This document shows positions 3,249-17,425 of a DNA stretch of 45,854 nucleotides, piece by piece. The stretch is from positions 1-45,854 of IMG/VR virus record IMGVR_UViG_3300044641_006875; one strand, given 5' to 3'. Numbering within the stretch: the stretch's first letter is position 1; the number at the start of each line of letters is the position of its first letter. The notes under the pieces were generated by a model. That model had not been told where the DNA came from. It ran no database searches and worked only from the letters and a program-made list of their open reading frames with translations. The position numbers and the translations under genes are program-made. This DNA comes from a virus.

Positions 3249-3325
3249 TGGTGGACCAGCCTGGGCTCGAACCAGGGACCTACTGATTATGAGTCAGGTG
3301 CTCTAACCTACTGAGCTACAAGTCC
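3249..3325 (-). tRNA. tRNA-Met (CAT)
   Basis: Cloverleaf read by eye: acceptor GGACTTG/CTGGTCC (one mismatch), D stem GCTC/GAGC, anticodon loop CTCATAA with CAT at 3289-3291, T arm CCTGG-TTCGAGC-CCAGG. It is the only tRNA here with an encoded CCA end (3249-3251). A CAT anticodon could be initiator or elongator Met, or the lysidine-modified Ile tRNA; I cannot decide. Confidence 0.9.
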
Positions 3326-3332
3326 AATGCGG

Positions 3333-3439
3333 TGCCGGAGGAGAGACTGGTTACTCACACGATGTCCATTTCGGATACACCACCCACCTAGGAAGGGAAC
3401 GTCTAATAGTTGTACACACTATCATTCCGCCACTCCGGC
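3333..3439 (-). ncRNA. tRNA-like element with perfect acceptor stem but no normal T arm
   Basis: A 7-bp closing stem GCCGGAG (3439-3433) with CTCCGGC (3340-3334), and a 5' half that resembles Leu/Ser tRNAs (TGGCGGAAT). The interior departs from a tRNA: a 7-bp hairpin with loop GTGTACA follows directly, and no GTTCRA T loop precedes the 3' strand. There is no CCA. It lies between tRNA-Met and the next gene. It could be a decayed tRNA, an interrupted tRNA, or a tRNA mimic. Confidence 0.4.
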
Positions 3440-3447
3440 ATATATTT

Positions 3448-4077
3448 TTATTCTACTTCTTGATTAGTTGTTGGATCATATTGAAATTTAATATATGTTA
3501 ATCCAATTTCTAAATCATTATAGATTTCTATTTTTTCTTCATCAATATTGTATGAACACATGTCACAACCCCAAAGAGAATTTCTTAACCCTTCTTTGAA
3601 TTTTTTCATGTCATCAATTCTAATCAAACTAAACACGCACTCTAAAGTTTGTGGAAGGTATTTCTTTTCTAACATTTTGTTATGGTTAAAATATGCGTCC
3701 CATTTTTCTTTATCCCCCGAATTACCTCTTTCATGTGTGCAACTATTAAACCACTCATCATCCAATCTATTATTTTCAATTTCATCTTTCTCACTAACCT
3801 TAATAACATTTCTTGAATGTATCATATCTGTCGATAATGTTGGTAAATAATTATCAACAATATTTTCACCGATATAGAATCCTAATTGGTAATCCATGTT
3901 AACATTTTTAAGATACTCTTTATTTTCTTCAATCACTTTTTCTTTATACTCTGGTGATCTAACTTCTTCCAATATTTTATTTAAAGTTGATCTTGAATTA
4001 AATTCATCTAATGATTGTATAAATGTTTTCCCATCTTCATTTGGGAATGTTTCTTCTAAGTATTTTTCTCTATTCAT
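3448..4077 (-). CDS. Hypothetical protein in the tRNA cluster
   Basis: A 209-residue, charged protein without a signal peptide or membrane segment. I do not recognise it. I placed the start at ATG 4077 (MNREKYLEETF); the longer open frame to 4152 would run through tRNA-Tyr. Cysteines cluster near the C-terminus (WGCDMC) and one lies in the middle (CTHERG), which may or may not bind metal. It is flanked by the tRNA-like element and tRNA-Tyr and so is probably transcribed with the tRNAs. Confidence 0.65.
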   Translation of the reverse strand: MNREKYLEETFPNEDGKTFIQSLDEFNSRSTLNKILEEVRSPEYKEKVIEENKEYLKNVNMDYQLGFYIGENIVDNYLPTLSTDMIHSRNVIKVSEKDEIENNRLDDEWFNSCTHERGNSGDKEKWDAYFNHNKMLEKKYLPQTLECVFSLIRIDDMKKFKEGLRNSLWGCDMCSYNIDEEKIEIYNDLEIGLTYIKFQYDPTTNQEVE

Positions 4078-4092
4078 TATATTTTCTTTATG

Positions 4093-4173
4093 TTGGGATA
4101 GACGGACTCGAACCGCCGAACTCGGAGAGAGCTGATTTACAGTCAGCCGCAATTGCCACTATGCGATATCCCA
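4093..4173 (-). tRNA. tRNA-Tyr (GTA)
   Basis: Perfect 7-bp acceptor TGGGATA/TATCCCA, D stem GCA/TGC, anticodon loop CTGTAAA (GTA), a long variable arm as usual for bacterial Tyr, and T arm GGCGG-TTCGAGT-CCGTC. CCA is not encoded. Confidence 0.9.
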
Positions 4174-4180
4174 ATTTATG

Positions 4181-4262
4181 TGACCAAGGAGAGACTCGAA
4201 CTCTCACGTCTTTCAACACTAGTGCCTAAAACTAGCGTGTCTACCAATTCCACCACTCGGCC
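4181..4262 (-). tRNA. tRNA-Leu (TAG)
   Basis: Class II tRNA. Acceptor GGCCGAG/CTTGGTC with wobbles, anticodon stem CTAGT/ACTAG with loop TTTAGGC (TAG), variable arm, and T arm GAGAG-TTCGAGT-CTCTC. No encoded CCA. Confidence 0.9.
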
Positions 4263-4274
4263 ATTGTGTTGACG

Positions 4275-4425
<151 letters not shown>

Positions 4426-4464
4426 AGCGTCTGTTCCGTCACTTATTTCTAAGTCATTACATTG

Positions 4465-4550
4465 TACCTGGGGCGGGAGTCGAACCCGCACGAGCCTTAC
4501 GGCTCACAAGATTTTAAGTCTTGCATGTCTACCAATTCCATCACCCAGGC
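4465..4550 (-). tRNA. tRNA-Leu (TAA)
   Basis: Class II tRNA: acceptor GCCTGGG/CCCAGGT, anticodon arm AAGA-CTTAAAA-TCTT (TAA), variable arm GAGCC-GTAA-GGCTC, T arm GCGGG-TTCGACT-CCCGC. TTA is the dominant Leu codon in this phage, so this tRNA fits its needs. Confidence 0.92.
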
Positions 4551-4608
4551 ATGATGTTTTACAATATATCAAAGAACTTTATCAAATATAAGAATAATAA
4601 ATTATAAA

Positions 4609-4642
4609 ACAAAAAACCCGAACATTTTTTATTTGTCCGGGT
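4609..4642 (-). terminator. Rho-independent terminator after the small outer-membrane protein
   Basis: ACCCGGACA/TGTTCGGGT stem with one mismatch and a 9-nt loop, followed on the - strand by TTTTTTG and further T residues. It separates gene 4665-5078 from the downstream tRNAs. Confidence 0.8.
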
Positions 4643-4664
4643 CTCGAAATAAATTTAAGCTTTA

Positions 4665-5078
4665 TTATTTTAATTTATATGATAACCCCAACCCTGGTGT
4701 AAAATTAGAACCAACAAGGTTTCCAATTAACCATAGTTTTAAATCTGTTGATTTTAATGCATTGTAACCAATGAAAGCATTTATTTTGTTTTCATGGTTA
4801 ACTGGTTGAACACCAAGACCAATTAAAATTTTATCTGGTTGAATCATCTTTAACACACCAAATTTCATCTGTGAAGAAAGTGATCCAGTTTTTTGATTAG
4901 CTAATTGCTGATCGTTATAGGGTGCACCAACGTATAACCCCCATGTGTTTTTTAATACGCCGGCCGTAATGTAACCATCTAATCCTTTATTTGTTCCTGA
5001 AACGAACACCTCTCGTTGTCCGTAGGTCACTGCCTTCACTCCCAATAGCATCATGACCAATATGATTTTTAGTTTCAT
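4665..5078 (-). CDS. Small exported beta-rich (outer-membrane-like) protein
   Basis: A 137-residue protein starting with a Sec signal peptide (MKLKIILVMMLLGVKAVTYGQ, cut probably after the GQ). The mature part alternates hydrophobic and polar residues and ends GLGLSYKLK, as in small Bacteroidota outer-membrane barrels. I do not recognise a family. It sits between tRNA-Glu and a terminator. An 11-bp inverted repeat overlaps the start codon (5077-5112), which suggests control of translation or RNA processing. Confidence 0.7.
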   Translation of the reverse strand: MKLKIILVMMLLGVKAVTYGQREVFVSGTNKGLDGYITAGVLKNTWGLYVGAPYNDQQLANQKTGSLSSQMKFGVLKMIQPDKILIGLGVQPVNHENKINAFIGYNALKSTDLKLWLIGNLVGSNFTPGLGLSYKLK

Positions 5079-5112
5079 CTATATAGAGACCGTAGTCCCT
5101 GTCTATATAGAT
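5077..5112 (-). promoter_or_regulatory. Hairpin overlapping the start codon of gene 4665-5078
   Basis: Perfect 11-bp inverted repeat ATCTATATAGA (5077-5087) and TCTATATAGAT (5102-5112) with a 14-nt loop. The AT of the start ATG is part of the stem. A TATTTATC box overlaps its upstream arm (5110-5117). Confidence 0.6.
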
Positions 5113-5135
5113 AAATATAAACTTAAAAGTGTTTG

Positions 5136-5207
5136 TACTCGGTACGGGATTCGAACCCGTGCTACGTCCGTGAAAGGGACGCGACCTAACCACTAGTCGA
5201 ACCGAGC
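5136..5207 (-). tRNA. tRNA-Glu (TTC)
   Basis: Acceptor GCTCGGT/ACCGAGT, anticodon loop CTTTCAC (TTC) on stem CGTCC/GGACG, T arm ACGGG-TTCGAAT-CCCGT. No encoded CCA. Confidence 0.92.
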
Positions 5208-5212
5208 AAGTG

Positions 5213-5299
5213 CGGAGGCTCAGGGATTCGAACCCCAGATACCGTTTCCAGTATGACGGTTTTCAAGACCGTTCCATTCAACCACTCTGGCAAGCCTCC
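5213..5299 (-). tRNA. tRNA-Ser (TGA)
   Basis: Class II tRNA: perfect acceptor GGAGGCT/AGCCTCC, anticodon arm ACGGT-CTTGAAA-ACCGT (TGA), variable arm of about 18 nt, T arm with TTCGAAT loop. Discriminator G, no encoded CCA. Confidence 0.93.
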
Positions 5300-5307
5300 A
5301 ATAAATG

Positions 5308-5381
5308 CGGACCGGACGGGACTCGAACCCGCGACCTCCGCCGTGACAGGGCGGCATTCTAACCAACTGAACTACCGATCC
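5308..5381 (-). tRNA. tRNA-Asp (GTC)
   Basis: Acceptor GGATCGG/CCGGTCC, anticodon arm CCGCC-CTGTCAC-GGCGG (GTC), T arm GCGGG-TTCGAGT-CCCGT. Discriminator G. It is the first tRNA of the cluster in the direction of transcription. Confidence 0.93.
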
Positions 5382-5875: not shown

Positions 5876-6002
5876 ATGTCATAAAATATATTATTAACCC
5901 TCATTTTAAGCTTATTGGGTAAAGTATGGGTATTTTATAATTTACCAAATATTATTTTTTTTAAAAATCTGTAATAAAATTTGCCGACACTTGCCTTGCT
6001 GA

Positions 6003-6010
6003 TATTTATC
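6003..6010 (+). promoter_or_regulatory. Late-type box TATTTATC, 3 nt before ATG 6014
   Basis: TATTTATC-AGT-ATG. It opens the exported-protein cluster and decides the start of gene 6014. Confidence 0.55.
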
Positions 6011-6013
6011 AGT

Positions 6014-6556
6014 ATGGCAAAAAATAATAGACTAAACGTCTCTCTATTACCTTTATTGGTATTGTTTGGATTCTATGGTTTGTATTCTTATATCGTTGAA
6101 CCAGTTGAAGAAACTAAATCTGTTTACATCTCTGGGGTTGAGAATAAAATCAAGATCGGTAAATTGACAAGCAATAGGAATTTGGCTTTTGGTTGTAAGA
6201 ACATCTTTGAGGAGATTTTACAAGAAAAAGACTTCGTTATTGTTGGTGATCCAAGTTCAGCAGAACTTATATTCAGTGCTGAAATCCTTTATCTTGACGT
6301 TAATAGAACAAAAAGAAACATTTCGGTATTCCATTCTGATGTCGAGGAAACTCTAGTTGTAATTAAGGGGTCCTTAACAGATAAAAATGGTAAAAAAATA
6401 AAAGAAGCTGTTGCGGAAGAGTCTAGTTCAGAGATCTCAACCTCAACTTTCATAACTGATGAAGGAAGTGGTAAAATTAATCAACAAGCACTTTCTTCTG
6501 CATTAAAAAAGACTTGTGAGTCTTTGATCAATAAAACATTCTTTAATAAAAAATAA
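6014..6556 (+). CDS. Membrane-anchored protein, possibly CsgG/LptE-like lipoprotein-family fold
   Basis: A 180-residue protein with one N-terminal hydrophobic segment (LLPLLVLFGFYGLYSYIV), no lipobox Cys, and a periplasmic-type domain. The body (KIGKLTSNRNLAFGC, then AELIFSAEILYLD, then SLTDKNGKK) resembles envelope assembly proteins in which strands alternate with helices and end in a C-terminal helix; a weak resemblance to the CsgG-like protein at 14385 is visible. I chose ATG 6014 because TATTTATC lies 3 nt upstream; the ATG at 5981 would read through that box. First gene of the exported cluster. Confidence 0.6.
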   Translation: MAKNNRLNVSLLPLLVLFGFYGLYSYIVEPVEETKSVYISGVENKIKIGKLTSNRNLAFGCKNIFEEILQEKDFVIVGDPSSAELIFSAEILYLDVNRTKRNISVFHSDVEETLVVIKGSLTDKNGKKIKEAVAEESSSEISTSTFITDEGSGKINQQALSSALKKTCESLINKTFFNKK

Positions 6557-6562
6557 CATAAA

Positions 6563-8206
6563 ATGAAGAGATTACTAATTACCGGCATTTTTTTACTAGT
6601 CGCCAATTTAACTTTTGCACAATTAACAGTTAACCAAACAATAACTCCAACAACCGGATTAAAGGTTGGTGATACATTAACGGTTAAATACACCGTAGCC
6701 AGAGGAACTACAACACCTCGTTATTTTTGGTTAAGATATTCTTTTAATAATAAAGCGTTAGCTATGGTACCTAATAGTACCGTTTTCTCTCAAGGTAGTT
6801 CAACACAGACGTTTTTTACTGGTTGGAATAACTTTAGATTTACACCAGCAGCAAATATTGCAGATACTCAATTATCGGCTCAATATGCCGCAACTCCGTG
6901 GGGTTACGCAGCAAATAACGATTGGAATGTTGGTCAATTAACAGTTCAAAGAACCGACGCATCAATTAATGGTGATATTGCTACTCAAAAATATGTATTA
7001 AAAGATCAAAATAGTTACAATGATATACATAAATTAGATTTATCATATGCTATAAATGATGCGTCTGCAAATATATCACCAATCACCAGAAGTTCTACAA
7101 ACATATCATTAACAAACGTGGTTGGTAATACCTCACAATTTAAAGTTAAAGTATTATTCCCACAGGGATATACAATTACCGATCATAGAGTGCAATTAAT
7201 GAAATTAAAGACAGATGGTACAATTGATTGGTCACAACAACCTATTGCACAGTTACCATTAGATGCAACCGGTGAAGCATTATTTACAACACAAGTTAAA
7301 GTTGGTGATTCTGTTGGTGTTTTTGTAAGCCCAGCATCACAAAAAGCTTGGATGAATAATGTTATAACCGTTTCGGATGCTTATAAAGCATTTTTAGGTC
7401 ATTCACAAACCGATATTGCTGGAGCACCTAACTTTTTTACATATCCTGTTTTAGAAAGAACTATTGGTAACATAACAAGAAATGATAACACATTTAATGA
7501 ATCGGATTCATATTACTCATTCGCATATGTTATGGGGCAGGATGTATCAACAAACGCATTTATCCCAACACAAACAGCAACTTCTTGGAGATGGCATAGT
7601 GGATTATTAAATCAAAGTTGGTTAGATGGGGTAATTAAAAACAAAGTAACTATTGATACCCCAATAAAAGAGGTTTATGCTGTGTTTGCTTGGGGTGGTG
7701 ATTTAGATTGGTCACATTCTTCTTCACCGGCAGAGATTGCAAGTAGAATTACTGCTGGACAATTTACCAATTCAGTAAATTCACTTAATACTAAAACATC
7801 GATGTCAACACAATCGATGTCATATAAAACACAATCATTAGAGACCGCTAGATTAAGTGTAACATCTACATTAGAAGGTGGTAAGGTGGTATTAACTACA
7901 AACTTAACAAAAGAAGGTTTAGCTGGATTAGAAGTTATCATGAACTATGATGAATCTAAATTAACATTAGATAATATAATTTTTGATTCCGGATCAACAA
8001 TGACAAATTTTTCAACACGTAAGGACGGTAGATTAACTTTTGGTTCAATTGATCAAACAAAAACAGCAAGAATTAAAACAGGCACACCATATAAATTAAT
8101 ATTCACACCTAAGGTTCAATTAACAAATACCGCAGGTTTATTCTATTTTGTTTTATCTGATGCTGTTGATGGAAACGGTAACAAAATAAACTTAATAGTA
8201 GAATAA
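6563..8206 (+). CDS. Secreted modular protein with dockerin-like and cohesin-like regions
   Basis: A 547-residue protein with a Sec signal peptide (MKRLLITGIFLLVANLTFAQ). The N-terminal third looks like an Ig/beta-sandwich domain. A calcium-loop-like segment NDNTFNESDSYYSF (about 308-322) aligns with the dockerin-like part of the next protein. The C-terminal roughly 115 residues (GLEVIMNYDESKLTL and onward) read like a cohesin-type beta sandwich. The two neighbours share this order and the phrase VITVSDAYKAF/IVTVSDVFIAF, so they are paralogues. No T9SS sorting tail is seen. Role inferred: surface or virion-associated adhesion. It follows gene 6014 by 6 nt. Confidence 0.7.
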   Translation: MKRLLITGIFLLVANLTFAQLTVNQTITPTTGLKVGDTLTVKYTVARGTTTPRYFWLRYSFNNKALAMVPNSTVFSQGSSTQTFFTGWNNFRFTPAANIADTQLSAQYAATPWGYAANNDWNVGQLTVQRTDASINGDIATQKYVLKDQNSYNDIHKLDLSYAINDASANISPITRSSTNISLTNVVGNTSQFKVKVLFPQGYTITDHRVQLMKLKTDGTIDWSQQPIAQLPLDATGEALFTTQVKVGDSVGVFVSPASQKAWMNNVITVSDAYKAFLGHSQTDIAGAPNFFTYPVLERTIGNITRNDNTFNESDSYYSFAYVMGQDVSTNAFIPTQTATSWRWHSGLLNQSWLDGVIKNKVTIDTPIKEVYAVFAWGGDLDWSHSSSPAEIASRITAGQFTNSVNSLNTKTSMSTQSMSYKTQSLETARLSVTSTLEGGKVVLTTNLTKEGLAGLEVIMNYDESKLTLDNIIFDSGSTMTNFSTRKDGRLTFGSIDQTKTARIKTGTPYKLIFTPKVQLTNTAGLFYFVLSDAVDGNGNKINLIVE

Positions 8207-8207
8207 T

Positions 8208-10499
8208 ATGAAGAAATTATTAGTAATATGTTTTTTACTAATTTCATTTTTAGGGTTCGGACAGAGTGTATCTGCTCCGGACTCTAAATCGTTTTTACCA
8301 TCTACATCGGGACAGGATGCTAGTGGATTTAGTTTGAGTGGTTTTAGTTCAACAGCAACACTATTAGCATCAATCAGTTTAGTTAATCCACCATCAGGCA
8401 CAACATTCGTATTAAATACAACAACAGGTTTAACCGCAGCAAGTGGATTTACTTTAAGTGGTAATAAAACTCGTTTGGTGGTAACAGGAACAATGGCTAG
8501 TATCAATACTGCATTAGCATCTCTAAGGGTAAACACAGGTTCAGTAAGAGGTAATGTTGTATTATCGGTGGCTGCAACTGTTAACCCAACGGGATATTTT
8601 TATAACGGAACAAATGGACACTTTTATAGACCAATATCAACCGGAGCGACTTATACAAATGCTAGAACACTATCATCACAACAAACATTCAAAGGACAAC
8701 AAGGATACTTAGTAACAATTACTTCAGCAGATGAAGATGCATTTATTTTTAATAATGTGCCTCAATCAAATATATGGTTTGCATTAACCGATGAAGCAAG
8801 TGAAGCAAGATGGACAATTGATGCGGGGCCTGAAGCGGGAACTTTAATTAAAATCAATAATGGTCAATTAAATGGAAACATTCCAGGACAATATAATAAC
8901 TGGGCACCCGGTGAACCAAACAATAGTGGTAACGAAGATTATGCAGTAACTAAATGGAACGGTTCTCAATGGAATGATTTACCAAACCATTTTGTAAATC
9001 CATATGTAATTGAATTTGGAACTTGGACTAATCCTGATGATGCAACATTTACGGAGTTCTATACCAATTCAGTAACACATTCAAACGGAGATGTATTAAC
9101 TGCAAGATTTAATTTTGATTTTGGTGGTAATGTAGATGAAACTAAATTCACCGCCAAAGCAAATATTTTTGTAAATAATGTTTGGGGAACAACAACTAAC
9201 ACATCAAGAGCGATAAGTGGATTGGGTAAAGTTGATATTACAAATGATTTAGATACCGCAAAATTAACTGATGGAATTAGAGCAACTATAACACCCGGTC
9301 AAGTAGAATGGTCACTTATAAATCCATATGAAGCTTCACGAAATGGTCATAGATTACAAATTGATGAAAGAGAATTTTTTGGTACTGGTATAAACTTAAA
9401 TCAAATAAAATCAATACAATTATTTGACATATATGATGGCCCTATCCAACCTTTAGATTTTAATGGGTGGTGGAAACAATGGTTGGTTCCTGGAAATATC
9501 AATCTTGCTAGTAAAGTTGCTGCAAGTTCATTTCAAAGTAACATAAGATTACAAGATGGTTGGTATGCATTTAGAGCCGAATACACATTCACACCAAACA
9601 CAATGTTTAAACAACACGGGATTGATTTATCATATACCAATCAAACGGAATTAAATTCATTATATAATAGTATTGTAACTGTATCAGATGTGTTTATTGC
9701 ATTTAAAGAATTATCAATGGGTGGTATATTTGGAAACGAGAGTGGGAATGAATTTACTTCAGGTGTACAATTTATGAATGCGGATGTTGACGGTAATGGT
9801 ATATTCAATGAATCGGACACATATAAGTTATTACAACATTTAACAGGAACACAATCTCTTACTCAATCTACAACGTTAACTCATTTAATGAAGTTATATA
9901 GTAAATCGGATTATGATGCAATCACCAAGTCAAATTGGAATACACAAATTAATTCAACTAGAAGTTTATTCCCTTTTAATTTAAACTCAGGAACACTTAA
10001 TAACACATATAATGTGAATGTAACTTGGGTGGGTGATGTTAATATGTCTCACTCAGCACAACAATCTGTAAGTGGTGTAAGCACTAATAGCGTTAGGTCT
10101 ATGAGTTTGTCAACGAATTCGGTCTCAACTGAGATTAACGCATCTATCATGGGTGAGATTACTAATAATAAAGTTATAATAACCATATCATTAGATCCAT
10201 TACAACAAGAAGTAGTAGGAACTCAATTTCAATTAAATTATGATAACTCTAAATTAAAATTTGAAAAGGTTGATTTTATAACAAAAGGTAACCCCATGAA
10301 TTATGGGACAAATAAAGGGACTTTTATAAATGTTGGATCATTAATTACTGGTGGCACCGGTGTATTGGATAAAACCACTGAATATCGAGCAGTATTTACA
10401 CCAATAGGAGATATAACAGATATATTGGGGTTAACATCAATATCAACAACAGATGCAGTTAATAAAGACGGAAAACAATTAAAAATAAAATTAAATTAA
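8208..10499 (+). CDS. Secreted C-type lectin protein with dockerin-like and cohesin-like modules
   Basis: A 763-residue protein with signal peptide MKKLLVICFLLISFLGFGQ. A C-type lectin domain occupies about residues 125-265: it has EPN at 236-238 and WND at 255-257, the calcium and sugar-contact motifs that in animal lectins go with mannose-type binding. A dockerin-like loop DVDGNGIFNESD lies near 526, and the last roughly 115 residues are cohesin-like (TQFQLNYDNSKLKFE). It is a longer paralogue of the preceding protein and starts 1 nt after its stop. It probably binds glycans on the cell surface. Presence of a signal peptide argues for export through the host envelope, although a virion role is not excluded. 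Confidence 0.78.
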   Translation: MKKLLVICFLLISFLGFGQSVSAPDSKSFLPSTSGQDASGFSLSGFSSTATLLASISLVNPPSGTTFVLNTTTGLTAASGFTLSGNKTRLVVTGTMASINTALASLRVNTGSVRGNVVLSVAATVNPTGYFYNGTNGHFYRPISTGATYTNARTLSSQQTFKGQQGYLVTITSADEDAFIFNNVPQSNIWFALTDEASEARWTIDAGPEAGTLIKINNGQLNGNIPGQYNNWAPGEPNNSGNEDYAVTKWNGSQWNDLPNHFVNPYVIEFGTWTNPDDATFTEFYTNSVTHSNGDVLTARFNFDFGGNVDETKFTAKANIFVNNVWGTTTNTSRAISGLGKVDITNDLDTAKLTDGIRATITPGQVEWSLINPYEASRNGHRLQIDEREFFGTGINLNQIKSIQLFDIYDGPIQPLDFNGWWKQWLVPGNINLASKVAASSFQSNIRLQDGWYAFRAEYTFTPNTMFKQHGIDLSYTNQTELNSLYNSIVTVSDVFIAFKELSMGGIFGNESGNEFTSGVQFMNADVDGNGIFNESDTYKLLQHLTGTQSLTQSTTLTHLMKLYSKSDYDAITKSNWNTQINSTRSLFPFNLNSGTLNNTYNVNVTWVGDVNMSHSAQQSVSGVSTNSVRSMSLSTNSVSTEINASIMGEITNNKVIITISLDPLQQEVVGTQFQLNYDNSKLKFEKVDFITKGNPMNYGTNKGTFINVGSLITGGTGVLDKTTEYRAVFTPIGDITDILGLTSISTTDAVNKDGKQLKIKLN

Positions 10500-10509
10500 A
10501 ACAAAAATT

Positions 10510-11262
10510 ATGGCAGACAGAAACGGAGACGGAATAGTATATCATCGCTCAGATTGTGGTGACAATTATGTAAGATGGTATTCGAGTGGTGGAGATAGCC
10601 CTTGTTCAGCGTGTGATACGTGGGGACTTACCGATAAGGCAATCAGATACATCCACGATCATCCTGAAATAAATCACAGATTTGAAGATGTGGTGGGTAG
10701 AGAGTGGGAGGAAGAAGTTATGCCGGTACTTATTAATATCGGAAACCAAATAGAGTCTGGTGTTAAAGAAGGATATGAAGTAGTAAAAGATGGTGTTAAA
10801 GAGGGCTATGAAGTAGTAAAAGATGGTGCAGTGATAGCATATAATTGGGCGGATGAAAACGCATGTAATATAGCAATAACTGCCGCAATCTCTGCAGGTG
10901 TTGTTGCGGCATTTTCACCGGCACAACCTGCTGGAGCAGCAACTTCAACTACATTATCATTTATGGCTACACCTGTTCTTTACGTTGCAGATATGACAGC
11001 TAAAATGGCGGTATCAACGGCAATGGGTGTAATTGTGACAGAGGCATTTTTACAAATACCAGGTGTTAGTGATAGTATTGACCACGAAATATTAAAGAAT
11101 GTAATTTCAAATTGTATCTATCATAGTTTAGAGTCGGCACACTTATGGGCAACACCAGCTGGTGTTGGTATTGCAATCGGAGCTGCAGTAGCACCAATTG
11201 TTGCAGATTTGATATGTAAAAGAACTTGTCCTAATGGATTCAGTAAAGCATTGGGGGCATAA
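10510..11262 (+). CDS. Hypothetical protein with tandem 11-residue repeat and hydrophobic C-terminal half
   Basis: A 250-residue protein lacking a signal peptide. The N-terminus has DRNGDG and several Cys/His (C17, C32, C35). Residues 85-106 are two copies of VKEGYEVVKDG, encoded by a 33-bp direct repeat at 10762-10827. The rest is Ala/Val/Ile-rich with two or three hydrophobic segments, suggesting membrane insertion or a glycine-zipper-like region. I do not recognise it. It overlaps the next gene by 1 nt (TAATG), so the two are translationally coupled. Confidence 0.65.
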   Translation: MADRNGDGIVYHRSDCGDNYVRWYSSGGDSPCSACDTWGLTDKAIRYIHDHPEINHRFEDVVGREWEEEVMPVLINIGNQIESGVKEGYEVVKDGVKEGYEVVKDGAVIAYNWADENACNIAITAAISAGVVAAFSPAQPAGAATSTTLSFMATPVLYVADMTAKMAVSTAMGVIVTEAFLQIPGVSDSIDHEILKNVISNCIYHSLESAHLWATPAGVGIAIGAAVAPIVADLICKRTCPNGFSKALGA

Positions 11263-12155
11263 TGAAAAAACTAATAATCATATTATCATTACTTTGTATT
11301 GGATTTGTTTCGAAAGCACAAATACAAAAACCCGATACGTTACAACTATCACCAAAAGAGTTATTTGGAGAAAGTGATGATTGGAATGATGTAGGTATAT
11401 TACAATCCTATGTTAATTTCTCAAAAGACGTTCTCTCATCATCAAATCTTTCGATAGGTGTAATTGGAAGACAAGTATCTACCACACTCAATTTAGGATA
11501 CCACAAATCGTCTTTAAACGGTCAATGGGGGCATTCATTTGCCGCATCGATAAATCCTATATGGAACTATTATGGTGTGGGGTATGGTCTCAGTAGAAAC
11601 ACAGAAAAAAGAACAACAACAATACAAACATTTTATTCCACGGACTTTGACTTTCAAAAAGACATTAATCTATCTTTTATAGATGTGTTTAGAACAAAAA
11701 AGTATGGAACATTTGGTTATAGTTTAACAGCATCAAAATCATTTTGGGGGACTTATCAAGGTGAATGGGAAGGAAAATATACGGTGGATGAAAATGGTGA
11801 TTTTAAAGATTTAATTTATCCACAAATGCCAGCATCATCAGAACTTACTTATAGAGGTATGGTGATGTATACGTATACATTAAAAACAAAAAGAGTGGAT
11901 ATTTCACCACAAGTATTTGCTATGAGTGACATATACAAAGTATTCAAAGATGGTACTGAATCAGATTTGGCATATGTAGATGACTTCAATTTGGACTTGT
12001 ATTATGGGGTTTCCATGGATTGGAAAATAACCAGAAGATTTGTGTTAAACACCAATATCAGATACAATACAACTTGGGATAAGTTAAGTGAATCTGTGGG
12101 GTATAAAAAGAGTAATCCGATCCTATTTATGATAGGAACAAACTTTAAATTTTAA
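11262..12155 (+). CDS. Outer-membrane beta-barrel-like protein
   Basis: A 297-residue protein with signal peptide ending SKAQ. The mature part is rich in alternating strands with Tyr/Trp/Phe girdle residues and ends in Phe (GTNFKF), the usual outer-membrane barrel terminus. It shares ISPQVFAM (near residue 217) with the C-terminal barrel of the protein at 15992. This suggests a barrel that may act in secretion or anchoring of the secreted proteins encoded upstream; that role is inference. Confidence 0.7.
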   Translation: MKKLIIILSLLCIGFVSKAQIQKPDTLQLSPKELFGESDDWNDVGILQSYVNFSKDVLSSSNLSIGVIGRQVSTTLNLGYHKSSLNGQWGHSFAASINPIWNYYGVGYGLSRNTEKRTTTIQTFYSTDFDFQKDINLSFIDVFRTKKYGTFGYSLTASKSFWGTYQGEWEGKYTVDENGDFKDLIYPQMPASSELTYRGMVMYTYTLKTKRVDISPQVFAMSDIYKVFKDGTESDLAYVDDFNLDLYYGVSMDWKITRRFVLNTNIRYNTTWDKLSESVGYKKSNPILFMIGTNFKF

Positions 12156-12499
12156 TGAAAAATTTATTATTAATATTATTATTTTTATTAGTTGGGTGTA
12201 CGAAAATGGAAATAGAACCGTTACCTCAACCAACAACACAAAATATATTTAGTGTTGCTGAAAGTGCCGTGACAGACGGCCAAACCATACAATTTGACTT
12301 ACCTTCAGACGGCATATATATACTAACATATACAGATGTGGCAACAGGTCAGGTTATAAGTAGGGAAAAATTTAATGGGAAGGCAGGCAAAAATTTAAAG
12401 AAAATATATACCAAAACCATAATGCCGAAGTATTTATATTTGATACTTGCTTCGGAGAATAAAACTCAAATAAGTAAAACAAAAATAACAATAAACTAA
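12155..12499 (+). CDS. Lipoprotein with a sorting-domain-like beta sandwich
   Basis: A 114-residue protein with lipobox LVGC (C15). The body (DGIYILTYTDVATGQVI, then a glycine-led strand, then KYLYLILASENK) has the rhythm of the C-terminal domains used by Bacteroidota type IX secretion, but here it is a lipoprotein of its own. It starts at the last base of the previous stop codon and is paralogous in layout to the next gene. Confidence 0.65.
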   Translation: MKNLLLILLFLLVGCTKMEIEPLPQPTTQNIFSVAESAVTDGQTIQFDLPSDGIYILTYTDVATGQVISREKFNGKAGKNLKKIYTKTIMPKYLYLILASENKTQISKTKITIN

Positions 12500-12500
12500 A

Positions 12501-12872
12501 ATGAAGAAAACACCAATTTTATTATTACTTGCCGCCATTTTGGTTGGATGCAATAAAGATGACTTTTATCAACCACCAATGAACGAAGTAAAGCCTGAGT
12601 TACAGATAAAAAACAATGTAGGTATCAAACTAGAGACAGCATTTGTAACAAGTGAAGTTTCTATGAATGTAAAAATTGATGTTGCTCAAGCAGTAACAAT
12701 AAAGATATTTGATATTTCTAATAGAGTGGTTTCTAAGGAGACTATGTCGGTTAAATCCGGTGATAATCTTTTAAAGGTATACACAACGGCATTACCGTCA
12801 TCTGCTTACAGAATTGGACTATTTGATTCTAAAGGTAATGAATTAGGAATAACAGATTTTAATAAATTATAA
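12501..12872 (+). CDS. Lipoprotein with a sorting-domain-like beta sandwich (paralogue)
   Basis: A 123-residue protein with lipobox LVGC (C17). The second half (VTIKIFDISNRVVSKE, then SSAYRIGLFDSKGNE) resembles type IX secretion type-A sorting domains more clearly than its neighbour does. No catalytic residues are seen. It probably sits at the inner face of the outer membrane or on the surface. Whether it competes with, mimics or docks to host type IX secretion is a guess. Confidence 0.68.
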   Translation: MKKTPILLLLAAILVGCNKDDFYQPPMNEVKPELQIKNNVGIKLETAFVTSEVSMNVKIDVAQAVTIKIFDISNRVVSKETMSVKSGDNLLKVYTTALPSSAYRIGLFDSKGNELGITDFNKL

Positions 12873-12888
12873 ACAAAAAAATAAAACA

Positions 12889-13206
12889 ATGTCAGAAGAA
12901 TTAGAACAAAATAATGATGGTACTTGGTCTGGTCTAAAAAAGACCATTATCGGTGTTGCAACAACAGCAGTTATGGGTTTAGGAACTTGGGGTGTTACCC
13001 AAATCACTGGTGGTGATGAACCTGCTCCGGCTCCTGCAGCAGCGCCAGTAATTAACATTACAAACTCAAACCAACAAGCTCAACAAGCTTCTGGTGGTGG
13101 GGGTAAAACCGTAGTCATTAAAGAAAAAGAAACAGTTAAGGAACCAGCTAAACCTGTTAAAAAGAAAGATGGTGATGAATTTAAAGAAGAAGCTCCTAAA
13201 TGGTAA
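12889..13206 (+). CDS. Small single-pass membrane protein with Pro/Ala and Lys-rich tail
   Basis: A 105-residue protein: short polar N-terminus, one hydrophobic segment (TIIGVATTAVMGLGTWGV, about 19-36), then a low-complexity region with EPAPAPAAAP, NQQAQQA, GGGG and a KE-rich end. Position just before three holin-like genes hints at a lysis or envelope role, but nothing identifies it. Confidence 0.65.
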   Translation: MSEELEQNNDGTWSGLKKTIIGVATTAVMGLGTWGVTQITGGDEPAPAPAAAPVINITNSNQQAQQASGGGGKTVVIKEKETVKEPAKPVKKKDGDEFKEEAPKW

Positions 13207-13212
13207 TATAAT

Positions 13213-13836
13213 ATGAAAGAAGAACAATCAGGTGGATTTAAAGAGTTATTAGGTAACATGATGAAGCGCAGGTGGTTTATTACCGCTATCGTTTTAGGTG
13301 GATTTATGATTATTATAATGGGAATATTTGGGGCAATCCTAAATAAATCAGCAATTGAGGGTGAGTGGAAAGAACTACTCTTATTATTGTTAGGTGCTTT
13401 CATTGGTTCTTATGGTAAAATCATTGACTATTGGTTCAGTGATACCGATAAGGATAAGATGTTAGTACAAAAGATGGATGAGGAAGATGGTACATCATTA
13501 AGCAATACTGCGGATATGCCAAATAACCCAATTGTACCAATGTCAACAGCACCATTAGTATTACCAACAAAAGAAGAAACGTTGAACGATACTTTTGAAA
13601 GAGTCCCTGTTACAGCACAAGTAGAATCTAAAGAAGAGAAAAAAGGTGTTGAGATTGACGAAGATGGTGATGGTGTTATGGATGGTTTAGATTTTGACGG
13701 TGATGGTAAAATCGATGAATACTTTGCACATAGACAATGTGAGCACGTTTGGGGAGACTCAGATGGTGACGGAGATTTAGAGTGTTTAGTATGTGGTAAA
13801 ATAAAAGATCCTGAACTTGGCGAAGAAGAGGGATAA
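13213..13836 (+). CDS. Two-helix membrane protein with DxDGDG loops and a C-terminal Cys knuckle (holin-like)
   Basis: A 207-residue protein. Two hydrophobic helices (about 21-43 and 54-68, LLLLLLGAFIGSYGK) are followed by a long acidic tail. The tail contains DEDGDGVMDGLDFDGDGKID, calcium-type loops like those of dockerins and thrombospondin type 3 repeats, and then C-E-H, DGDGDLEC and C-L-V-C-G, which could form a zinc ribbon. The membrane part resembles phage holins; the tail is not normal for holins. It may link the inner membrane to the secreted dockerin/cohesin-like proteins. Confidence 0.62.
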   Translation: MKEEQSGGFKELLGNMMKRRWFITAIVLGGFMIIIMGIFGAILNKSAIEGEWKELLLLLLGAFIGSYGKIIDYWFSDTDKDKMLVQKMDEEDGTSLSNTADMPNNPIVPMSTAPLVLPTKEETLNDTFERVPVTAQVESKEEKKGVEIDEDGDGVMDGLDFDGDGKIDEYFAHRQCEHVWGDSDGDGDLECLVCGKIKDPELGEEEG

Positions 13837-13865
13837 TAAAAATAAAACGCATAAAATTTTAAAAT

Positions 13866-14132
13866 ATGGCAAGTTTTTTGAAAGAATTATTTAATGACAA
13901 CAACACAATCAACGAAAAATCAGTAGTTGGTTTCTCATCATTTATTTGTATGGTAATAGCATTGGTTGTTGATCTTGTGACTGGTTACATGGGTAAACCT
14001 TTGGTTATAAATGAATTTATCTTTGATGGGTTTTTAGTTATAACATTAGGTGCATTTGGCATTGCATCGGTAGATAAGTGGATTAATAATAAGAATCTTA
14101 AAAAAGACGAACCAGAGGTTTTAGAAGGATAA
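13866..14132 (+). CDS. Holin-like two-helix membrane protein
   Basis: An 88-residue protein with two hydrophobic segments (about 20-41 and 52-70) and a charged C-terminus (NNKNLKKDEPEVLEG), the usual layout and size of class II holins. No family signature is recognised. Neighbouring membrane genes support a lysis or envelope function, but no endolysin is present in the window. Confidence 0.58.
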   Translation: MASFLKELFNDNNTINEKSVVGFSSFICMVIALVVDLVTGYMGKPLVINEFIFDGFLVITLGAFGIASVDKWINNKNLKKDEPEVLEG

Positions 14133-14148
14133 AATTAAAAACAAAGAA

Positions 14149-14379
14149 ATGACTAACATCTTAAATAAAGCTAAAGCAACCCTTTTTAATGTGACTGTGG
14201 TTTTCACTTGTGCTTGGCTAGCATTTGCATTATCTTTTCAGATGTATGCTATATACTTAACAGTAAGCGGACAAGAGCAAGAAATGACAAGAATTTCTAA
14301 TGAAATTTCTTGGAAAATTGACGGTACATTTAAAAACAATCCAGAAAATATCTGGTATGAAGGTGATCAAAAACAATAA
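14149..14379 (+). CDS. Small single-pass membrane protein
   Basis: A 76-residue protein with one hydrophobic helix (FNVTVVFTCAWLAFALSFQM, about 13-32) and a polar C-terminal tail, consistent with a spanin-like or holin-partner protein but with no diagnostic residue. It is 5 nt from the CsgG-like gene. Confidence 0.6.
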   Translation: MTNILNKAKATLFNVTVVFTCAWLAFALSFQMYAIYLTVSGQEQEMTRISNEISWKIDGTFKNNPENIWYEGDQKQ

Positions 14380-14384
14380 GGTAT

Positions 14385-15107
14385 ATGAAAAAATTATTAG
14401 TTACATTAAGCGTTTTTTTACTAAGCGTTGTTGTTCTTAATGCACAAACAATAGGTAAAACAAAAACAGAAGACTATAAAGCCGATTTTGAAAAGAAAAA
14501 GGATATAAGCGCTTACTTGGATTATGATGGTCCTCAAATACCTATTCAAATTCTTAAATGTGGTATATCTGATGAGGTATATGAAATGTATCCAGAACTA
14601 AAAGAAAAACGTGTTGGTTTAGGGGTTGCAAACATATCAATGGAATATCTTGAAAATCTTAATAGATTTAAGTTTACTGAAGATAAAACAGAAATTAAAA
14701 ACAGAATGGTTAAGCAGTTTCAGGCTTCTCAGGCTGGCATTTCAGAAAACAAATTAGATGGTAGAGGTAAAATTAATTTAGCAAAGTATTTTGTAACAAT
14801 TGAATGTTATGATTATTCCGTATCTGAAGATGAAACAATTAATTTAAAGGATGGTATAAAAGATAATATGGTGACTAGAATTGGTTTACAGGTAAGATTT
14901 ACCGATGCCGAGACTGGTCTAGTTTTTGCTGGTTCCGGTTTAGGTGAAGCTAAAACAACCAGAGAATTAACATTATTATCCGATGCAACTATAGATCCAA
15001 TAAAATTTAATCAATCAACCATTAGTATATCAACTAAAAAGGCATTAGACATCGCGGTTGCAAACATTCTTGATAGAATGATTAAGAAGCAAATATTCAC
15101 AAAATAA
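14385..15107 (+). CDS. CsgG-like exported protein
   Basis: A 240-residue protein with signal peptide MKKLLVTLSVFLLSVVVLNAQ. The mature protein follows the order of the CsgG family: GLGVANIS strand, a helix, then NLAKYFVTIECYDYS, a long strand pair VTRIGLQVRFTDAETGLVFAG, and a final helix with ALDIAVANILDRM. CsgG forms the outer-membrane channel for curli; the family includes shorter relatives of unknown function. The lipobox Cys of true CsgG is missing. CsgG-like genes occur in other T4-like phages, as far as I recall. It is the last gene before the terminator at 15131. Confidence 0.65.
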   Translation: MKKLLVTLSVFLLSVVVLNAQTIGKTKTEDYKADFEKKKDISAYLDYDGPQIPIQILKCGISDEVYEMYPELKEKRVGLGVANISMEYLENLNRFKFTEDKTEIKNRMVKQFQASQAGISENKLDGRGKINLAKYFVTIECYDYSVSEDETINLKDGIKDNMVTRIGLQVRFTDAETGLVFAGSGLGEAKTTRELTLLSDATIDPIKFNQSTISISTKKALDIAVANILDRMIKKQIFTK

Positions 15108-15130
15108 TATAACAATAATAAGAATTATTT

Positions 15131-15158
15131 AAAAGGAGGTGTAATAACCTCCTTTTTT
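15131..15158 (+). terminator. Rho-independent terminator of the exported-protein operon
   Basis: AAAAGGAGGT / ACCTCCTTTT perfect 10-bp stem with loop GTAATA, followed by T residues. It ends the run that starts at 6014. Confidence 0.9.
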
Positions 15159-15160
15159 TA

Positions 15161-15168
15161 TATTTATA
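15161..15168 (+). promoter_or_regulatory. Late-type box TATTTATA before gene 15183
   Basis: Lies directly after the terminator, 14 nt before ATG 15183; a place where a new promoter is needed. Confidence 0.55.
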
Positions 15169-15182
15169 ATAAAAGAAAAGGT

Positions 15183-15992
15183 ATGAAACTAATACTATTA
15201 ACTTTATTACTTGTACCGTCATTTTTATTCGGTCAAGTGTCTTCTTGGAGAAATAATCCACCCAGACAATCTTTACCACAACAAAGGGTAGAATCATCAA
15301 GAACAATACCATCAACACCACAACGAAATGATGTCAGCAGATGGAGAAGTAATCCACCTCAACCAGATCCGCGAGGTAGAGTTAGAATTCAAAACTGGGG
15401 TAGACCGAATCAGTTTGGTTACTACTGGGGAGAATGGGGATGGTATCAGCCATTTCCTTTCATTTGGTATGATGATTTTGGATGGAGACAAAGAAGTGTA
15501 ATTCACGTATACGAAAATGGTAAAAGAGATACTATTAGAAGAGAATCAATTTATACAACTTTTGGTGCTGGGTATACAAATAATAAACAAGTATCTTTTT
15601 GGGGTGCTGCTGGAAGAAAAAAAGGTTATTTTATTTTAGATTACACAATGTCATATGATATTGATCAAAATGAATATTACCCATATGGTAGAATAAGCGA
15701 TGTGGACTTTCCACTAAGTGATAATGATTTTATTAAACAAGGTGCATTATATCTTGGTGGAGGTAAAAGATTTGGAAAGTTAGGTGTTCATGGAATGATT
15801 GGGTTTGGTAGAGAGATTATTAGATATCAGGGTAGAGACGAACTAGGTGGTATTTCATTCCCTAAATCAAATTCAAATTTTACAACATTTAAATTTGGTA
15901 TTATAAGAGACTTTAAATTCTTCACATTAAAATTAGATAGAGATCCAATAAGAAATTACAACCAAATAAGTATTGGATTGCATAATAAGTAA
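15183..15992 (+). CDS. Exported protein with Pro/Arg-rich linker and barrel-like C-terminus
   Basis: A 269-residue protein. Signal peptide MKLILLTLLLVPSFLFGQ, then a low-complexity segment with repeated SSWRNNPP / SRWRSNPP units (about 20-65), a Trp/Tyr-rich stretch (GYYWGEWGWYQPF) and a strand-rich C-terminal part. Likely outer-membrane associated. It has its own TATTTATA box after a terminator and is coupled to the next gene by a shared TAATG. Confidence 0.65.
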   Translation: MKLILLTLLLVPSFLFGQVSSWRNNPPRQSLPQQRVESSRTIPSTPQRNDVSRWRSNPPQPDPRGRVRIQNWGRPNQFGYYWGEWGWYQPFPFIWYDDFGWRQRSVIHVYENGKRDTIRRESIYTTFGAGYTNNKQVSFWGAAGRKKGYFILDYTMSYDIDQNEYYPYGRISDVDFPLSDNDFIKQGALYLGGGKRFGKLGVHGMIGFGREIIRYQGRDELGGISFPKSNSNFTTFKFGIIRDFKFFTLKLDRDPIRNYNQISIGLHNK

Positions 15993-17425
15993 TGAAAAAA
16001 ATATTATTTTTTATTTTTATTTTTATTTCGATAAAATCGTTTGGTCAAACTTATACACAAACTTTTATAGACAAATGTAGTGGTGAAAGAAAAGTTGCAA
16101 CTACAACCATGATTAATGGTCAAGCAACTGTATCTTTTTATAATCAAATTAGAACATTTACATTATTGGAGGTACAAACAGGTGTTGTACAAACATGGTT
16201 AATGACAACAAAAGCAACGTATGAATCATTAACTTGTCCAGTTATTAATAATCCTGTTGTACAACAAGCTGTTGCTAATACTGCAGCTCAAACAGCTAGT
16301 AACGCAGCTGCAGCTGCTGCAAGTTCTGCTGCATCAAGTGCAGCGTCATCATCAGCATCGTCAGCGGCAAGTAGTAGTGCTAGTTCAGCGGCATCAAGTT
16401 CAGCGGCTGCATCAACACCACCACCAACAACCCCACCACCTGCACCAGCAAGTGGTTCATCTGGATCTACTGGTAGTAATAGTTCATCTGGTGGTGGATC
16501 ATCTTCAAGTGGGTCATCATCTTCAGGATCTAAAACCGAATCAAAAACTGAAACTAAAAGTGAAAGTAAGACCGAGTCTAAATCGGAATCTAAAACAGAA
16601 GAAAAGAAGACAGAATCTAAAACGGAAGAAAAGAAAGAAGAATCAAAATCTGAAAGTAAAGAAGAGAAAAAAGAAGAAAAGAAATCAGAAGAGAAAAAGG
16701 AAGAAAAGAAAGAGGAGGAGAAAAAAGAAGAAAAGAAAAAAGAAGAAAAGAAAAAAGAAAAAGCGGTTGTATCGAACCCAATGTTATTATCATCTGATCT
16801 ATCAACAATAGAATCACCCGATGGTAGATGGTTACAATCCGCAACTATTGGTGTCTCTAAATCATCATTAATGGGCGATGAAAGTTATTCAGCAAATGCT
16901 GTCATAATGAGTGATTTAAAAACTTTTATTGTTAGTGGTGGTTATACTAAAATGGATTTCTCTGGTGGTAAGTTAAAAGCTATACATTCATACTCATCCG
17001 CGTTTGCATATTTGAATGGAAACTATATGAACTTGTTGGGTTATACACATATTAAACCAACACTAAAACATGGTGTTTTTGGTTACAATCTTGGTATAAT
17101 TAATTTATTTTTAAAAAATGGAGATAACAAATATGATTTTAATATGTCATCATCAGTTGTAACATTTTGGACAAAACCATATCAGTATAATAAAAAGTTA
17201 ACGATATCACCACAAGTGTTCGCAATGGCTGCCCCAATATCATGGAATAGTGTAACTGGAGGGTCAACAGTAAATAGACAATTAGGTTTTCTTTTAGGTT
17301 CTTCCTTTGATTATAAATTAAGTAAAAGATTTGGACTAAGTGTTAATTACAAATTAAGTGGTAACACTGCACCGGGTTCACCTTTCTTGAGTAATATTTT
17401 GATTGGATCAAGAATGATTCTTTAA
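15992..17425 (+). CDS. Exported protein with Ser/Ala and Lys/Glu repeats and a C-terminal barrel
   Basis: A 477-residue protein with signal peptide ending KSFGQ. After a roughly 80-residue domain comes an Ala/Ser tract built of SSAASSSA-like units (about 92-145), a Pro/Gly/Ser linker, and a charged tract of TESK and EEKK repeats up to about residue 255. The last 215 residues are a strand-rich barrel-like domain that shares ISPQVFAM with the protein at 11262. The repeats look like a flexible periplasmic spacer. This may anchor the outer membrane to something in the periplasm. The purine-rich repeat DNA may be length-variable. Confidence 0.68.
   Translation: MKKILFFIFIFISIKSFGQTYTQTFIDKCSGERKVATTTMINGQATVSFYNQIRTFTLLEVQTGVVQTWLMTTKATYESLTCPVINNPVVQQAVANTAAQTASNAAAAAASSAASSAASSSASSAASSSASSAASSSAAASTPPPTTPPPAPASGSSGSTGSNSSSGGGSSSSGSSSSGSKTESKTETKSESKTESKSESKTEEKKTESKTEEKKEESKSESKEEKKEEKKSEEKKEEKKEEEKKEEKKKEEKKKEKAVVSNPMLLSSDLSTIESPDGRWLQSATIGVSKSSLMGDESYSANAVIMSDLKTFIVSGGYTKMDFSGGKLKAIHSYSSAFAYLNGNYMNLLGYTHIKPTLKHGVFGYNLGIINLFLKNGDNKYDFNMSSSVVTFWTKPYQYNKKLTISPQVFAMAAPISWNSVTGGSTVNRQLGFLLGSSFDYKLSKRFGLSVNYKLSGNTAPGSPFLSNILIGSRMIL

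Follow-up and report, generated by a model that had tools for sequence, protein, structure and literature searches.

A C-type lectin with dockerin-like and cohesin-like modules in a conserved cassette of aquatic Bacteroidota phages, and its possible display on the infected cell

The DNA analysed here is the IMG/VR record IMGVR_UViG_3300044641_006875, a whole virus record of 45,854 bases (hereafter the window). It carries T4-like head genes, namely those for terminase, portal, protease and major head protein. The major head protein was nearest to those of an uncultured phage and Rhodothermus phage RM378, and then to those of the Flavobacterium phages vB_FspM_immuto. Of 50,697 phage records, only those of the immuto phages contained relatives of the lectin and of the CsgG-like protein described below. 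The window genes from 5981 to 17425, all on the plus strand, recur together: homologue searches yielded more than 230 loci, and the cassette was present in more than 200 IMG/VR phage loci as well as in immuto. Its carriers are a large group of aquatic Bacteroidota phages. Within the cassette, neighbouring genes of the window are in most cases separated by -1 to 29 bases and never by more than 75, a spacing as in an operon. When loci were fetched with the CsgG-like protein and those with enough flank were kept, the cohesin protein, P12 and the barrel protein occurred in 63 of 63 and the lectin in 54. Just upstream of the cassette, eight tRNA genes occupy the minus strand (3249-5381).

The lectin gene (8208-10499) starts with ATG and encodes 763 amino acids; it was confirmed to be a genuine, conserved gene. 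Its product consists of a signal peptide, an N-terminal beta domain that is common to some host adhesins (residues 21-128; 8268-8591), a C-type lectin domain (residues 129-275; 8592-9032), a variable beta-rich middle domain (residues 280-476; 9045-9635), a dockerin-like module (residues 483-617; 9654-10058) and a cohesin-fold domain (residues 640-763; 10125-10496). The initial annotation had described a secreted C-type lectin, and both the signal peptide and the lectin were borne out: Pfam Lectin_C (PF00059) matched residues 162-267 with an E value of 2e-6 and 29 bits against a curated cut-off of 22.6, and 40 of the 44 family members had a match at E<=1. The motifs EPN (residues 236-238; 8913-8921) and WND (residues 255-257; 8970-8978) lie exactly where they had been placed. 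In 50 distinct homologues, E236, N238, E243, N256 and D257 were invariant. We take these to be the five side-chain ligands of calcium site 2, by comparison with mannose-binding protein. Since this ligand set is complete and conserved, calcium-dependent sugar binding by the lectin domain is well supported at the sequence level; EPN favours mannose-type sugars. Residues 129-275 of the window lectin contain no cysteine, and the two conserved disulfides of the canonical animal-type CRD are absent.

By entropy over the 50 homologues, conservation was highest at residues 21-300 and lowest at residues 320-480 and in the linker at 621-660. That the lectin half is the most conserved argues against a lectin diversified by a retroelement. 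We had considered a diversity-generating retroelement and rejected it, the lectin domain being among the best-conserved parts; no reverse transcriptase was found among the window proteins scanned with PHROGs. Two further candidates were discarded as artefacts, an 855-base insertion in homologues that came from joined tblastn pieces and a count of 'WNG' motifs that the pattern had picked up from WNGSQWND.

An AlphaFold2 model of the lectin protein, built on 44 homologues, had a mean pLDDT of 77.9, which means moderate confidence. Foldseek matched it first to cohesins and next to a group of C-type lectins (Endo180 CRD2, CD23 and Clec4f). Modelling of this kind had been suggested in the initial annotation as a check that might reveal neither fold; the folds obtained were those of lectin and cohesin. 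For residues 640-763, the best PDB match was the cohesin-like module 2jh2 of C. perfringens (E 1e-6, prob 1.00, TMt 0.64-0.70), and cohesins made up most of the top 24 matches. The gene immediately upstream (6563-8206) encodes a paralogue of 547 amino acids with a signal peptide and no T9SS tag, in which a degenerate dockerin-like part (about 7355-7732) precedes a cohesin-like part (about 7835-8203). These two parts are held in common with the lectin protein (BLASTP 4e-16), and the paralogue's calcium loop has lost ligands. The presence of both modules in both proteins, as first claimed, is thus upheld by BLASTP, Foldseek and family profiles, with a degenerate dockerin-like copy in the paralogue. 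Pfam PF00963 scored 14.7 on the paralogue's cohesin, below the cut-off of 24.1, and was found in 26 of 44 and 15 of 30 relatives at E<=1 (best 9e-6). The window lectin alone had no Pfam cohesin or dockerin match at E<=1, and a PDB profile search with the paralogue alignment returned only chance antibody and ribosomal matches. Because the window proteins fall short of the PF00963 cut-off, we use the terms cohesin-fold and cohesin-like; the cohesin and dockerin-like calls are drawn from family and structure evidence and not from the window sequence alone.

Iterated profiles delimited the dockerin-like module as about 120-135 residues (483-617 in the window) with a GDVNxSHS-type segment at its end. 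In the window, its second calcium loop is intact (D526-x-D528-x-N530...D537; 9783-9818) and the first is degenerate, its early ligands being missing throughout the window's group. Only D494, D526, D537 and one glycine were invariant in 50 diverse copies. D494 and D537 occupy the last ligand position of the two F-hand repeats, and D526 the first of the second loop. Searched against the PDB, the family profile matched the ScaH dockerin best (E 4.6e-5) and several other dockerins weakly. Pfam Dockerin_1 was found in 25 of the 50 module copies (best 7e-6; only E 0.03 for the window copy) and, at E<=1, in 19 of the 44 lectin family members. A type I dockerin has two calcium-binding F-hand repeats and the window module has one intact loop; because its first loop is degenerate, we call it dockerin-like. 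The dockerin profile match and the cohesin fold are independent pieces of evidence, and the dockerin-like module may have a cohesin domain as its partner. The module was present in all 184 complete phage lectin proteins, and none of the 184 had an anchor or a T9SS tag of its own.

Our comparison of the related loci revealed two forms of the cassette. In the commoner, tagged form, lectin and cohesin are separate proteins: the lectin protein has no cohesin, and the cohesin protein (about 633 amino acids; 243 in immuto) has a T9SS type A sorting domain at its C-terminus (TIGR04183, PF18962). In the form of the window, the cohesin protein is untagged, the lectin has its own cohesin and two lipoproteins follow; the T9SS sorting domain is absent from both cohesin-bearing proteins. 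Lipoprotein 1 (12155-12499) has a domain resembling the T9SS type A sorting domain, and so does lipoprotein 2 (12501-12872), with a weaker match. The two are homologous to each other (hhalign prob 98.7-99.0). Against the sorting-domain profile they reached hhalign prob 90.7 and 55.7, the value of lipoprotein 2 being weak, compared with at most 15.9 for control profiles. In Capnocytophaga, the optimal signal for surface export of lipoproteins is C-X-K-(D/E)2-X (PMC5080379). The C-N-K-D-D-F of lipoprotein 2 fits this signal, as do most of its relatives, and lipoprotein 1 fits it less well.

The tag and the lipoproteins exclude each other. A tagged cohesin without lipoproteins was found at 153-154 loci, an untagged cohesin with lipoproteins at 53, both at none and neither at one (L180). 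The apparent exception L180 has an in-frame TGA (around 8354) between the cohesin domain and an otherwise intact T9SS tag, just before the latter, which may be a natural nonsense mutation, an assembly error or a site of read-through. The exclusion is clean, but it does not represent 200 independent events, as the homologous loci are related. On the tree of the CsgG-like protein the form switched at least seven times, or at least five times without L180 and the long-branch L070. For example, one locus has a CsgG-like protein 85% identical to that of the window, yet the opposite form (L091). The exchanged genes adjoin, so they may travel as one block.

The signal peptides and tags also bear on whether the lectin could be part of the virion, where it would decorate the phage particle and help it to adsorb to hosts or to mucus-like material. 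Phage fibres and decorations often bear lectin domains (PMC7824862). However, the signal peptides on the lectin and cohesin proteins would take them away from the cytoplasm, the site at which T4-like heads and tails are assembled, the T9SS tags in relatives indicate the cell surface, and the immuto genes lie outside the tail cluster. We regard a virion lectin as the least probable of the readings considered.

Host genomes contain relatives of the lectin half. Of 150 genomes from a single flavobacterial family, 28 contained relatives of residues 21-291 (E below 1e-15), and in the best case the identity was 44-50% over the N-terminal and lectin domains, with EPN and WND kept. These host proteins are flavobacterial T9SS adhesins with a C-type lectin; most of them are long (about 800-2000 amino acids), and several carry a T9SS type B tag at the end. 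TIGR04131 was matched at the end of the available stretch in all five host proteins tested, three of them above the cut-off; the other two were below it because the available sequence ends inside the tag. A dockerin-like module or cohesin was found at none of 23 host loci, most of which are incomplete. For the whole lectin protein, the only cellular relative in the genome scan was an adhesin with residues 21-291 in common. Since the phage lectins carry a dockerin-like module and no tag, and their host kin a T9SS tag and, in the available stretches, no dockerin-like module, it seems that a fused tag was replaced by a docking module in the phage versions.

The remaining cassette genes encode mostly membrane or exported proteins. 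The first gene (5981-6556; true start probably the ATG near 6014) specifies a small membrane-anchored or exported protein with weak similarity to TraT/YajG. The gene following the lectin (10510-11262) is optional and encodes 250 amino acids without a signal peptide; the protein contains a tandem VKEGYEVVKDG repeat and was present in only 11 of 83 records compared, and the gene is an accessory one. Next comes an optional outer-membrane barrel-like protein (11262-12155) related to the C-terminal part of the last cassette protein. Downstream of the lipoproteins lie P12, a single-TM protein with a Pro/Gln-rich tail (12889-13206), a two-TM protein with an acidic Asp/Gly-rich tail (13213-13836), a small two-TM holin-like protein (13866-14132), a small one-TM protein (14149-14379), the CsgG-fold pore-type protein (14385-15107), an optional exported barrel-like protein (15183-15992) and the last protein (15992-17425), which has an exported N domain with two conserved cysteines, a long linker and a C-terminal outer-membrane barrel. 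This linker is of low complexity, first Ser/Ala-rich and then Glu/Lys-rich.

The protein of 14385-15107 was not recognised by any sequence profile. In 11 phage records, Pfam PF03783 remained without a match even at E<=10, while the controls matched, and a PDB profile search with the CsgG-like alignment gave none either. Three long strands are present in its model, whose confidence (pLDDT 71.6) is lower than that of the lectin model, and in Foldseek CsgG structures took all of the first 19 places (best E 7e-7, TM about 0.5), so that the model shows the CsgG fold with its long transmembrane hairpin strands. The signal sequence ends in LNAQTIG, with no N-terminal lipobox cysteine, and a lipobox-like match was found in only 5 of 53 CsgG-like proteins of the window's form. 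Because the profile (PF03783) and lipobox tests fail, we do not claim membership of the CsgG family; judging from the model, the protein may work like CsgG or be its remote relative. CsgF and curlin had no Pfam match at E<=1 in the cassette proteins scanned.

The octamer TATTTATA occurs on the plus strand of the window at 15161, 23362, 24466, 24489, 29951, 33254 and 34037, where it precedes several head-region genes and the cassette gene at 15183 by 12-42 bases. Among related loci, 15 of 50 had it before the first cassette gene and 16 of 43 before the CsgG-like gene; for random places the figure was 81 of 4140. As a candidate late promoter, TATTTATA suggests that some cassette genes may be expressed late. 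Such timing would suit a lysis aid, in which the CsgG-fold pore, P12, the small membrane proteins and the barrel disrupt the outer membrane and the lectin is accessory. The holin-like and small TM genes inside the cassette agree with this, and CsgGF of phage Melnitz has been suggested to act in lysis (PMC9004378). Nevertheless, we think it quite improbable here. Lysis leaves the lectin, cohesin, dockerin-like module and T9SS tag unexplained, the cohesin protein accompanies CsgG in all loci with enough flank, and no endolysin was recognised among the cassette proteins scanned.

The reading we prefer, and consider somewhat probable, is that a Bacteroidota cell infected by the phage comes to carry a phage-encoded, calcium-dependent lectin on its outer surface, displayed there through cohesin-dockerin docking. 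The lectin would be exported by its signal peptide and, having no anchor of its own, would dock by its dockerin-like module onto the cohesin of a partner protein held at the surface. In most relatives this partner would be the tagged cohesin protein (T9SS type A). In the window's form, the two lipoproteins with their tag-like domain, one of them bearing a textbook surface-export signal, would replace the tag. Either the cohesin's partner domain or the lipoproteins would thus hold the complex at the outer surface, and the CsgG-fold protein and the barrel proteins would form the outer-membrane side of the apparatus. The untagged lectin could leave the cell piggy-back with the tagged cohesin, and export through the CsgG-fold pore is also possible. 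The initial annotation had proposed self-assembly into fibres on the basis of the co-occurring modules. The co-occurrence holds, and fibres are only one reading of it: lectin and tagged cohesin are separate in the commoner form, which indicates docking onto a surface anchor first. Fibres or chains are possible, because many cohesin proteins of related loci also carry a dockerin-like module.

The likeliest use of such a display, though less certain than the display itself, would be adhesion, by which a dying cell is held near its siblings or near glycan-coated particles, so that the progeny meet new hosts. Surface display would equally bring the lectin beside the host's glycans, and by binding the cell's own LPS or capsule it might mask receptors and block the adsorption of competing phages; phage-encoded curli have been proposed to defend against superinfection (PMC9599517). 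However, masking should favour diversification, since receptors and O-antigens differ between strains, and the lectin half is the best-conserved part across diverse phages. We therefore judge masking unlikely. The conserved sugar site suggests a common ligand, so adhesion or capture is somewhat favoured over strain-specific masking of receptors.

The arrangement resembles a cellulosome, in which an anchoring scaffoldin, an adaptor and a dockerin-bearing enzyme are combined, in having a cohesin fold on the anchored protein and a dockerin-like module on a carbohydrate-active partner. It differs in that it is phage-encoded, the cargo is a lectin instead of an enzyme, the module has one intact calcium loop, and anchoring would be by a T9SS tag or lipoproteins. 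Cohesin-dockerin assemblies bind polysaccharide in cellulosomes, and the Bacteroidota hosts are polysaccharide degraders, so the phage assembly might likewise bind polysaccharide and help the infected host to feed. Yet the cassette proteins that were scanned with Pfam, PHROGs and NCBIfam included no recognisable glycoside hydrolase, and we hold such foraging to be very improbable. A bolder version of the display reading, which we put forward only tentatively, is a cellulosome-like display machine: a lectin module of host adhesins would have been severed from its T9SS tag and remade into a calcium-dependent clasp of two parts, with either a T9SS-tagged cohesin or a lipoprotein pair mimicking the tag in trans as the anchor, and infected cells would become sticky traps.

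For phage-encoded curli pores, roles in uptake, in the capture of siblings, in defence against superinfection or in lysis have been put forward (PMC7029224, PMC9599517, PMC9004378), and a T4-like virus with marine Bacteroidota as its predicted hosts was noted to carry a curli set (PMC7198788). The cassette is similar to the curli/type VIII genes of pelagiphages and methylophage Melnitz in that a phage CsgG-fold protein belongs to a multi-gene surface cassette. However, it has no PF03783 match and no recognised CsgF or curlin; it occurs in Bacteroidota phages, and the CsgG-fold protein is accompanied by lectin, cohesin and barrel proteins. T9SS sorting tags on phage proteins are also known, in Cryophage (PMC7468147) and as crAss-like BACON/T9SS ORFs (PMC6949934). 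These earlier cases are enzymes, PA14 or BACON proteins, and neither the union of cohesin, dockerin-like module and lectin nor a tag moved onto lipoproteins occurs in the published phage T9SS cases examined. A literature search for phage cohesin plus lectin gave nothing relevant, and no description of the present gene combination was found in the literature searched, which lacks most subscription journals.

If the display reading is true, widespread phages of aquatic Bacteroidota spend a dozen genes on remodelling the exterior of the infected cell, using the host's own export route with a clasp otherwise best known from cellulosomes. Sibling capture and similar adhesion ideas would become testable by two-protein binding assays, with an isolate (immuto) available. 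Furthermore, the exchanged sorting tag could inform how T9SS tags and surface lipoproteins work.

As in the window, the genomes of the Flavobacterium phages vB_FspM_immuto (MW353175-177) have proteins annotated as 'lectin C-type' and 'cohesin' close together, and their CsgG-like protein is 54% identical to that of the window. They differ in that their form is shorter, comprises three proteins and has the T9SS tag attached to the cohesin protein. This appears to be a three-step set, made up of a lectin with a dockerin-like module, a cohesin-like part with a dockerin-like module and a cohesin with the T9SS tag. The cohesin-like part of the immuto protein _14 was assigned from a BFVD match of corresponding length, a PDB search having given no match. 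No functional interpretation of the immuto lectin and cohesin proteins was found in the literature searched. At 25 immuto-like loci (L225 and 24 similar ones) the lectin protein has two C-type lectin domains, and at least some of these proteins depart from the usual EPN/WND pattern.
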